Source: a virus | Length of the DNA stretch: 24,713 nucleotides | IMG/VR virus record: IMGVR_UViG_3300029319_000337 | Location: 1-24,713 of that record | Direction: 5' to 3' (one strand) | Part shown: positions 77 through 14,061 of the stretch, one piece after another | Layout of the letters: each line of letters begins with the position of its first letter | How positions within the stretch are numbered: the first letter of the stretch is position 1 | Translations under genes and position numbers: made by a program | The notes under the pieces: generated by a model | Told to the model about the DNA's origin: nothing | Seen by the model: the letters and a program-made list of their open reading frames with translations, nothing else | Database searches by the model: none

Positions 77-577
77 TCAGAAGTTGAGACAGAAGATGAA
101 ACCTTCCAACTCAACATAATCATGACGAAGGTTATCCCAAGTGTAGGACCAGTCGATAGCAACAAACCCAGGAACATCTAGGCAGTAGCAATCTTCTACC
201 AGTTGTTGAGCGAACTCAGAACCAGACATTTCGCCTTGATAACTATCAGCGAAAGAGTCAATTTGCTCTTCACCGAAGTAATCAATGAACTCACAAATTG
301 CATCATGAGGATAGTCTTCCAGGAGAGTATTGATAGTCTCTTGATTGTTGCTATCCTCTGCAACAATTTCATCTGAAGTATCATCGAAGGAATGACCTTT
401 GGACTTCATCAACTCAGTATAAAAGTCAGTAAAGTGAACTTTAGTGTTGTTACCTTCTTGAGTAAAGTAACCACAAGCAATAGCAATTTCAGAAGGTTTT
501 TTACCTTCTGCCTGCATTGCATTGACAGTGTTGAGAAGTGCTTGACCAGTGATCATGATGTTTGAAGTGTTGTTCAT
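77..577 (-). CDS. AbrB-like / ArdA-like fusion protein, probable antirestriction or regulatory factor
   Basis: This 166-residue protein appears to join two domains. Residues 8-62 (ITGQALL at the start, IACGYFTQEG and FTDFYTELMKSKG further on) match the pattern of the cyanobacterial AbrB-like DNA-binding domain. Residues 85-164 (SYQGEMSGSEFAQQLVED, then AIDWSYTWDNL) follow the pattern of the C-terminal part of ArdA, an acidic DNA-mimic inhibitor of type I restriction enzymes. The C-terminal half is strongly acidic, as expected of a DNA mimic. The first ATG directly abuts a promoter-like element at 578-606. The ATG of residue 8 (nt 554-556), where homology begins, is an alternative start. Domain matches are by eye: the AbrB-like part is firmer than the ArdA-like part. 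Confidence 0.8.
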   Translation of the reverse strand: MNNTSNIMITGQALLNTVNAMQAEGKKPSEIAIACGYFTQEGNNTKVHFTDFYTELMKSKGHSFDDTSDEIVAEDSNNQETINTLLEDYPHDAICEFIDYFGEEQIDSFADSYQGEMSGSEFAQQLVEDCYCLDVPGFVAIDWSYTWDNLRHDYVELEGFIFCLNF

Positions 578-606
578 ACTATAAGGACAGTTTAGAGGTG
601 AGTAAC
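578..606 (-). promoter_or_regulatory. Repeated promoter-like element, copy 1
   Basis: Minus-strand TTACTC (600-605), conserved ACCTCTAAACTGT, 16-base spacer, then the -10-like hexamer TATAGT (578-583). It directly abuts the ATG of the AbrB/ArdA-like gene. Confidence 0.7.
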
Positions 607-3845: not shown

Positions 3846-3874
3846 ACTATAAAGACACTTTGGAGGTGAGTAAC
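3846..3874 (-). promoter_or_regulatory. Repeated promoter-like element, copy 7
   Basis: Minus-strand TTACTC (3868-3873), ACCTCCAAAGTGT, hexamer TATAGT (3846-3851), one of the two best -10 matches. A leader of about 17 bases precedes the ATG at 3828. Confidence 0.75.
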
Positions 3875-3884
3875 TTTTAGTCTA

Positions 3885-4727
3885 TCAATAGTTTGTAACA
3901 AGAACCTCTTTCACATCTAGCGTTGATGTACCACGTCCAGCAGTATATTTTGCACTCATCTCAATGATATTGGCACCAGCAAAGTTGTCCTCATAGAATG
4001 TATCTCCAATGTGCTTATTTGAATAGGCAAACTTACATCCAGACTCCATCAAAAAACGTGCTAGTCTAACTTGATCATCCTCACTAAAACCACCCTGATA
4101 GAGAACAATGCTATCACGATATGGCGGGTCAGCATATAACCAGTCGCCATCTTTTATATTAACGGAAGCAAAGTCCCCATTGCAAATAGTTGCTTTCTCA
4201 AGGAAAGATGCAACGTTCTTGATCTTATTCACATCAAAGAATGACTGCTTTTGTAGACATGTTCCAGGTGGCGTAGAATATCTCTCATTGCATTTTTTGT
4301 ATGCTTTCCACATACCATTAAAATTCACCTGCAACATGAACAACAACAGTGCAGACAAATATACATCAGACTTGCCTTCATTTTGCAGACAATATATCTC
4401 TCTCAACTCATAATAGTATTTCTTTCTATCATCTACCTCAGATAGACTTAACCACTTTTCTACACATTTGAACCATTCATTGATAACCTCATCGCTGCTA
4501 TCTGCCAATGTGGCATACAACAACACCAGTTCACCATTCCAGTCATTGACCACGAATTCTTTCTGAGGAAACTTCTCATAAACCCAAAGAGAGTTAGTAA
4601 GTCCACCAGCAAAAAGATCCACGAAACGTGTGAACTCTCCCTCAGGAAAAAAGTGTGGTGCATATTGCCCCATCATTCGCTGTTTAGAACCAGTCCACTT
4701 GAACATTGGGGCAATAGATGTTTTCAT
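3885..4727 (-). CDS. dam: DNA adenine methyltransferase, D12 (Dam-like) class
   Basis: A 280-residue N6-adenine methyltransferase of the D12 class, which transfers a methyl group from S-adenosylmethionine to adenine in DNA. Visible motifs in family order are FKWTGSKQRM (residues 9-18, motif X), FVDLFAGG (35-42, the AdoMet-binding DxFxG motif I), NFNGMW (135-140) and the catalytic DPPY (200-203, motif IV). Length is normal for Dam. Its ATG overlaps the stop of the upstream 328-residue gene by four bases, so the two are co-translated. It may protect phage DNA from host restriction or mark it against a partner nuclease. The exact target site cannot be read from the sequence. Confidence 0.93.
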   Translation of the reverse strand: MKTSIAPMFKWTGSKQRMMGQYAPHFFPEGEFTRFVDLFAGGLTNSLWVYEKFPQKEFVVNDWNGELVLLYATLADSSDEVINEWFKCVEKWLSLSEVDDRKKYYYELREIYCLQNEGKSDVYLSALLLFMLQVNFNGMWKAYKKCNERYSTPPGTCLQKQSFFDVNKIKNVASFLEKATICNGDFASVNIKDGDWLYADPPYRDSIVLYQGGFSEDDQVRLARFLMESGCKFAYSNKHIGDTFYEDNFAGANIIEMSAKYTAGRGTSTLDVKEVLVTNY

Positions 4728-5728: not shown

Positions 5729-5757
5729 AATACTAATACAGTTTGAAGGTGAGTAAT
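5729..5757 (-). promoter_or_regulatory. Repeated promoter-like element, copy 8
   Basis: Minus-strand TTACTC (5751-5756), ACCTTCAAACTGT, hexamer AGTATT (5729-5734). It precedes the nuclease-like and methylase pair, with a leader that contains a full Shine-Dalgarno. Confidence 0.7.
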
Positions 5758-6661: not shown

Positions 6662-6690
6662 ATTACTAAAACAGTTTAGAGGTGAGTAAC
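6662..6690 (-). promoter_or_regulatory. Repeated promoter-like element, copy 9
   Basis: Minus-strand TTACTC (6684-6689), ACCTCTAAACTGT, hexamer AGTAAT (6662-6667). It lies immediately downstream of a rho-independent terminator, which supports a promoter role. Confidence 0.78.
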
Positions 6691-8580: not shown

Positions 8581-8609
8581 AATAATAATACAGTTCAGAG
8601 GTGAGTAAC
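8581..8609 (-). promoter_or_regulatory. Repeated promoter-like element, copy 11
   Basis: Minus-strand TTACTC (8603-8608), ACCTCTGAACTGT, hexamer ATTATT (8581-8586). It precedes the helicase operon. Confidence 0.7.
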
Positions 8610-9048: not shown

Positions 9049-9077
9049 ACTACAGAAACAGTTTAGAGGTGAGTAAC
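9049..9077 (-). promoter_or_regulatory. Repeated promoter-like element, copy 12
   Basis: Minus-strand TTACTC (9071-9076), ACCTCTAAACTGT, hexamer TGTAGT (9049-9054). Confidence 0.72.
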
Positions 9078-10194: not shown

Positions 10195-10223
10195 GTTAAT
10201 AGAACAGTTTAGAGGTGAGTAAT
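10195..10223 (-). promoter_or_regulatory. Repeated promoter-like element, copy 13
   Basis: Minus-strand TTACTC (10217-10222), ACCTCTAAACTGT, hexamer ATTAAC (10195-10200). The first base before TTACTC differs from most copies. Confidence 0.65.
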
Positions 10224-12565: not shown

Positions 12566-12697
12566 TTACACTACAGGGACAGTTTCAAGGTGAGTAACTT
12601 TTACTGTTGGAGGAGTTAATGGCTCTATCTCCTCCATTTCTTTCCAAATGTTTTCAAACTCCTCTAAAGTTTGGTGTTTATATTCTTTAGCATCCAT
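12566..12697 (-). CDS. Small protein whose C-terminus is encoded by promoter-like copy 14 (43 aa)
   Basis: A 43-residue frame found in a gap: ATG at 12695-12697, TAA at 12566-12568. It starts MDAKEYKHQTLEEFENIWKE and is acidic and helical, then ends KVTHLETVPVV. Those last residues are translated from the repeated promoter-like element itself. At most other copies a stop codon stands just before the element. The start overlaps the end of the upstream gene. A recent frameshift or stop loss could explain the read-through. Confidence 0.55.
   Translation of the reverse strand: MDAKEYKHQTLEEFENIWKEMEEIEPLTPPTVKVTHLETVPVV
12570..12598 (-). promoter_or_regulatory. Repeated promoter-like element, copy 14
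   Basis: Minus-strand TTACTC (12592-12597), ACCTTGAAACTGT, hexamer TGTAGT (12570-12575). A leader of about 20 bases precedes the ATG at 12550. This copy lies inside the reading frame of the preceding 43-aa gene. Confidence 0.72.
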
Positions 12698-14032: not shown

Positions 14033-14061
14033 GATAATAGAACAGTTTAGAGGTGAGTAAC
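14033..14061 (-). promoter_or_regulatory. Repeated promoter-like element, copy 15
   Basis: Minus-strand TTACTC (14055-14060), ACCTCTAAACTGT, hexamer ATTATC (14033-14038). This is the first copy in transcription order, just after the metalloprotease gene. Confidence 0.7.

Follow-up and report, generated by a model that had tools for sequence, protein, structure and literature searches.

Marine cyanobacteria are killed in large numbers by cyanophages, and the question raised by the present locus is what such a phage might do with a protein that begins like a nucleoid regulator of its host and ends like an antirestriction protein. The window (the whole stretch of DNA analysed, 24,713 of the 29,321 bases of the virus record) encodes a UvsW-type helicase sharing 84% identity with its counterparts in Synechococcus phages S-SM2 and Bellamy, and for this reason the virus is placed among the T4-like cyanomyoviruses. 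The preliminary description of ORF 77–577 had proposed a fusion of a cyanobacterial AbrB-like domain with an ArdA-like antirestriction domain, and both domain assignments were borne out, by an HMM built from host sequences, by hhalign, by PHROG 36653 and by structural alignment with VIA-align. The features of the locus are listed in Table 1.

The ORF is a real gene, as confirmed by full-length homologues across viral contigs and by low dN/dS values in both of its halves. These were below 0.5 for nearly all close pairs (the exception, L157/L159, has a dS of less than 0.05), showing that both halves are under purifying selection. The translation start probably lies at M8 rather than at the listed ATG, since nearly all close homologues begin at the equivalent methionine, since in one homologous locus (L001) the 22-bp element TTACTCACCTCTAAACTGTYCT stands about 25 bases before that start, and since in the window the promoter-like repeat ends just before nt 577. 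The hexamer that follows the repeat, if used as a -10 box, would place the start of transcription at or after the listed ATG. The TTACTCACCTCTAAACTGTYCT element occurs 13 times in the window (0.01 expected), always on the same strand and each time 5' of an ORF, and is followed by a TAGTRTAA-like stretch. It looks like a MotA-type phage promoter box. It was not found in the region around uvsW of S-SM2.

Table 1. Coordinates of the fusion gene, its domains and the associated repeat in the window.
Feature	Position (nt)	Strand	Remarks
Complete ORF	77..577	minus	166 aa as listed; 159 aa from M8 (second in-frame ATG, 554-556)
cyAbrB-type N-terminal domain, residues 8-63	389..556	minus	predicted H-H-E-E-H; CGY motif with Cys35
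Linker, residues 64-76	350..388	minus	low predicted confidence; apparent junction of N-/C-domain exchange
ArdA-like C-terminal region, residues 77-166	80..349	minus	domain 3 and most of domain 2
TATAGT	578..583	minus	candidate -10, directly after the 22-bp repeat
22-bp repeat TTACTCACCTCTAAACTGTCCT	584..605	minus	candidate promoter box; ends 6 bases before listed ATG
TTACTCACCTCTAAACTGTYCT copies 1-7	584-605, 830-851, 1112-1133, 1546-1567, 2942-2963, 3852-3873, 5735-5756	minus	
TTACTCACCTCTAAACTGTYCT copies 8-13	6668-6689, 8587-8608, 9055-9076, 10201-10222, 12576-12597, 14039-14060	minus	

Residues 8–62 had been assigned to the AbrB-like pattern of cyanobacteria. Residues 8–63 matched an HMM made only from the N-terminal domains of host cyAbrB proteins with 29.7 bits (E 2.6e-7 in 12,989 ORFs), the runner-up among the ORFs of the window having an E value of 48, and the best score listed for 5000 shuffled copies was 9.3 bits, compared with 29.9 for the real sequence. 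Profile-profile comparison with hhalign, a check of the kind that had been suggested, paired residues 8–63 of the phage family with residues 1–58 of host cyAbrB (probability 99.3%, E 4.5e-20) and gave no alignment beyond these limits. A host HMM for the C-terminal half of cyAbrB did not match the ORF, and PF14250 matched neither the window protein nor any other sequence in the whole virus record. The earlier assignment is thereby upheld as to homology, but the shared part is the N-terminal domain of cyAbrB, and the DNA-binding half of AbrB is absent. Because PF14250 spans only cyAbrB residues 43–112, the phage N-domain is left unnamed by Pfam, PHROGs and NCBIfam; a search of NCBIfam with the window protein gave nothing relevant, and PDB sequences, queried with the protein as well as with profiles of its family, contained no meaningful match. 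Judged from these alignments, the N-terminal part is a cyAbrB-specific domain and not the AbrB/SpoVT DNA-binding fold.

When bacterial genomes were searched with the phage homologues, almost all matches were to proteins of marine and freshwater picocyanobacteria, and their translations proved to be cyAbrB, in which the AbrB-like half is preceded by an N-domain (MLTGSDLLAKVKELGDVSKSELVRACGYVSTKKDGGERLNFTAFYEALLEAKG) some 55 residues long. The N-domain was present in every cyAbrB paralogue recovered across the phylum, in both paralogue types. AlphaFold2 predicts the same order of elements in this domain, helix-helix-strand-strand-helix, for the phage protein (mean pLDDT 85.6) and for cyAbrB (69.5 overall, 84–91 in the N-domain). 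The likeness to cyAbrB1/cyAbrB2 (PF14250) thus covers their N-terminal residues 1–58, including CGY and FTxFY..L.AKG, while the phage protein lacks the AbrB half (43–112) past its first approximately 12 residues and carries an acidic domain in that place. Core and hairpin residues, hydrophobic motifs, and the CGY and FTxFY signatures are kept in the phage N-domain, whereas the conserved lysines of helix 1 are lost, as is, in most cases, the arginine preceding CGY. This loss of basic residues speaks for a domain that binds protein and against one that binds DNA. With these residues gone and the AbrB DNA-binding half missing, the earlier suggestion that the joint protein brings its antirestriction domain to DNA is not supported; the other role proposed for it, titration of host AbrB-like dimers, is on the anatomy the better reading and is kept here as a proposal.

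The same comparison bears on the idea that the N-domain is a small HTH-like DNA-binding or regulatory domain, the whole protein being a phage transcription regulator with an acidic auto-inhibitory or activating tail. The host domain is indeed part of a transcription regulator, and VIA-align gave the phage N-domain a weak likeness to the HTH or winged-helix proteins AibR, SmtB, MntR and Spo0J, but the scores (Z 2.1–3.2) are at noise level, the order of helices and hairpin is unlike that of a winged helix, and the basic positions conserved in the host domain are those lost from the phage family. A DNA mimic joined to a DNA-binding domain would also tend to mask that domain, and a regulator of this kind is considered improbable.

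The cysteine of the CGY motif occurs in 79% of the phage sequences and in all aligned host sequences, and in non-marine relatives it lies at positions 32–36, usually as the sole cysteine. Published work on cyAbrB1 and cyAbrB2 shows that the two interact and that glutathionylation of C34 in cyAbrB2 disrupts DNA binding (PMC13421787). The position of C34 fits that of the CGY cysteine of the N-domain, as judged from these relatives. Cys35 of the phage protein might accordingly be imagined to gate an interaction in illuminated or stressed cells, as a redox-tuned version of either of the roles considered below. The published switch and the conservation of the residue speak for such tuning, but 21% of the phage family, forming a podovirus branch, have alanine here (DAGY) with the fusion retained, and the equation with C34 rests on relatives; a redox function is therefore thought unlikely.

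In the second half of the protein, residues 85–164 had been read as the C-terminal ArdA pattern, and structure prediction had been named as a check for the fold. When the AlphaFold2 model was aligned with PDB chains by VIA-align, ArdA (2W82) was the top row, model residues 84–165 corresponding to 2W82 residues 75–165 (81 residues aligned, rmsd 2.7), and although its Z score of 6.3 is below 8, the match draws weight from its margin over unrelated rows (next row Z 3.2) and from its agreement with PHROG and viral models. The ArdA reading of this region is upheld by these results. No PDB entry had an E value below 0.38 in a Foldseek search with the same model, ArdA surfacing only in the second look with VIA-align; against viral models, the significant Foldseek matches were mostly antirestriction proteins. 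Residues 86–166 matched PHROG 36653, ‘anti-restriction’, with an E value of 1e-9. The window protein does not reach the gathering score of the Pfam ArdA family, PF07275 (14.9 bits, cut-off 27), which was matched at E≤0.1 by 20 of 47 family members (best 7.7e-7).

Three domains are distinguished in ArdA, comprising residues 1–61, 62–103 and 104–165 (PMC3906837). According to the model, the C-half has the fold of domains 2–3, domain 3 being represented together with the greater part of domain 2; the remainder of domain 2 is lacking, as is domain 1, whose place is occupied by the cyAbrB N-domain. Residues 63–166 include 26 acidic residues and a single basic one (net charge -25), and across the family the net charge of the C-half averages -24.9 (range -30 to -21), whereas that of the cyAbrB C-half is about +4. 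Published ArdA proteins lie between -22 and -29 (PMC3906837), so that the phage protein resembles them in charge as well as in the fold of its C-half, and differs in having a cyAbrB N-domain for domain 1 and in its sequence score. In effect, the basic DNA-binding half of cyAbrB would seem to have been replaced by an acidic DNA mimic.

The main rival to the reading preferred below is an antirestriction or broader anti-defence protein aimed at a type I restriction enzyme or at some other defence complex that binds DNA, in which the N-domain would stand in for ArdA domain 1 to give structure, dimerisation or a tether to the nucleoid. Fold, charge and PHROG 36653 agree with an antirestriction or anti-defence role, relatives of the protein are already annotated in this way, and a D12-class adenine DNA methyltransferase gene (nt 3885–4727, minus strand) is a possible second antirestriction gene of the window. 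N-terminally extended ArdA proteins have been described, with the proposal that they are active, but mutants map antirestriction to ArdA domains 1 and 2, and antimodification to domain 3 (PMC3906837), and the antirestriction reading is weakened by the lack of domain 1 and of some of domain 2. It also gives no account of why the N-domain of a host nucleoid regulator was added in two phage families. We regard it as possible but somewhat doubtful.

Our preferred reading, to which we would give a probability of roughly 0.45, is that this is an early or accessory cyanophage protein antagonising the host nucleoid regulators cyAbrB1/cyAbrB2. What is observed is a cyAbrB N-domain joined to an ArdA-type acidic domain where cyAbrB has its AbrB half, a pairing found in two phage families. 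The N-domain would dock on host cyAbrB, either in mixed oligomers with it or as a competitor for whatever partner the N-domain normally has; the tethered DNA mimic would then fill the DNA-binding surface of cyAbrB, and the regulator would be lifted from the DNA of phage and host alike. Docking, mimicry of DNA and whatever effect there may be on infection are inferred from the analysis as a whole. cyAbrB2 was shown in 2024 to be an H-NS-like nucleoid protein of a cyanobacterium that covers AT-rich DNA, with a suggested part in defence against foreign DNA, and the same eLife paper notes that biochemical data on cyAbrB oligomerisation are lacking (PMC11368403). Phages have means against H-NS itself: the DNA mimics Ocr and Arn, and also ArdA, relieve H-NS silencing, and gp5.5 of T7 attaches to the domain through which H-NS oligomerises (PMC6936261). 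Within the ArdA family, ArdA_R64 binds the transcription repressor AllR directly (PMC13300388). These precedents, together with the swapped basic half and the loss of basic residues from the N-domain, are why antagonism of cyAbrB is favoured over antirestriction. A single chain would here unite both published anti-H-NS strategies, binding of the oligomerisation domain (gp5.5) and DNA mimicry (Ocr, Arn). To our knowledge, the protein would, if this is true, be the first factor directed against cyAbrB. T4 Arn and T7 Ocr, which act on restriction enzymes and on H-NS, are comparable as acidic phage DNA mimics and as earlier cases in which a nucleoid protein is removed from DNA, but they have different folds, and neither contains a domain of its nucleoid target. 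The proposed strategy of engaging a target via its interaction domain recalls T7 gp5.5, a protein that has no sequence relationship to the one described here and does not mimic DNA.

The distribution of the possible targets favours cyAbrB as well, as it was found in 297 of 300 sampled genomes of the Cyanobiaceae, the host family, compared with HsdR in 93 (about a third, so that most of the sampled hosts yielded none), bearing in mind that completeness is uneven among these genomes and that ArdA may have targets besides HsdR. The number of cyAbrB copies per genome was 1–14 in Cyanobiaceae (G003 and others), and mostly two in other cyanobacteria with a match. If cyAbrB is the target, genes of this family labelled ‘antirestriction’ may be misnamed as to what they act on. 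The fusion also puts two questions within reach of a direct test, namely whether phage DNA is silenced by cyAbrB and what role the cyAbrB N-terminal domain plays.

The two halves of the protein have been exchanged independently of each other. Compared with the homologue of L001, the window protein shows 37% identity in the N-domain and 90% in the C-domain, while with L099 the values are 79% and 66%. Trees of the two halves agree with this, the N-domain of the window protein grouping with L099/L100 (support 98) and its C-domain with L001/L002 (support 95), and in AU tests the data of each half rejected the grouping of the other (p 0.009 and 0.0015, values that are somewhat optimistic as the groups were picked after the identities had been seen). 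The same discordance appears elsewhere in the family (N/C identities of 80%/32% for L229/L238 and 40%/78% for L107/L126), and the N-domain thus behaves as an exchangeable module. The apparent junction lies where the confidence of the AlphaFold2 model is low (pLDDT 55 in residues 61–70). Tentatively, and with a little less than even confidence, the protein can be described as a dedicated nucleoid-protein antagonist composed of a target-derived docking domain and a DNA mimic, the docking domains being swapped to follow the cyAbrB repertoire of the hosts. Against antagonism of cyAbrB, it must be said that swapped domains would be no less expected in a modular anti-defence protein of any kind. A second point against it is that ArdA-like proteins in some cyanophages appear to lack the N-domain: those of P-TIM68, S-TIM54 and Marine virus AG-345 share the homologous C-terminal domain, but no N-domain is detectable in them and more of ArdA domain 2 is retained, so the ArdA half is of use without an N-domain. 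A match to a 52-aa model from P-TIM68 raised the possibility of a split version in that phage, with adjacent N-domain and ArdA genes, but none was present among the neighbouring ORFs.

The fusion family comprises more than 50 distinct proteins (100 ORFs, with redundancy) from T4-like myoviruses and T7-like podoviruses. Named isolates with the fusion are the Synechococcus podoviruses S-CBP1, DSL-LC07, WH11-B, 7B11-B and S-B28; in DSL-LC07 and WH11-B the gene lies within a cluster just upstream of the RNA polymerase gene, a host-takeover position. That ArdA can be fused to other proteins was noted in 2013 (PMC3906837), and the antirestriction annotation of some family genes is likewise known, but no report of a cyAbrB N-domain in ArdA-like proteins, of its exchange, or of a phage anti-cyAbrB factor was found in the literature searched.

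Among all ORFs collected with the N-domain, the partner was an ArdA-like half in 100 and an AbrB half in 124, the latter from host contigs in 78 cases and from viral contigs in 46. Viral contigs with complete cyAbrB-like proteins (N-domain and AbrB half) include L156, L158, L163–L165 and L193–L199, and indicate that phages may also supply their own cyAbrB, although some of these contigs could be host DNA. Two other partners were seen once each. A Vulcanococcus protein (L096:982-3108) combines apparent membrane segments, the cyAbrB N-domain and leucine-rich-variant/HEAT-like repeats, implying that the N-domain moves as a module among host proteins as well, and a viral protein (L155:3956-4549) combines it with a Kyano_Gp96-like domain (PF23790, PHROG 554).

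No conserved partner gene was found beside the window ORF, most of the neighbours common to related loci reflecting proximity to T4-like baseplate genes. A small acidic protein of PHROG 661 with an AbrB/MazE-like pattern (e.g. L118:6069-6314) is encoded 0.5–2.5 kb downstream of the fusion in 26 loci, and proteins of this type also occur in P-SSM2 and S-SKS1, and in S-SRM01, where the annotation is ‘DNA-binding domain-containing’. It was not taken as a partner because it is also present in phages where no fusion was found. The same cyanophage fusion gene was encountered on a contig (L019) of a Flavobacteriales metagenome bin, and its presence there suggests that this is probably a misbinned phage contig.
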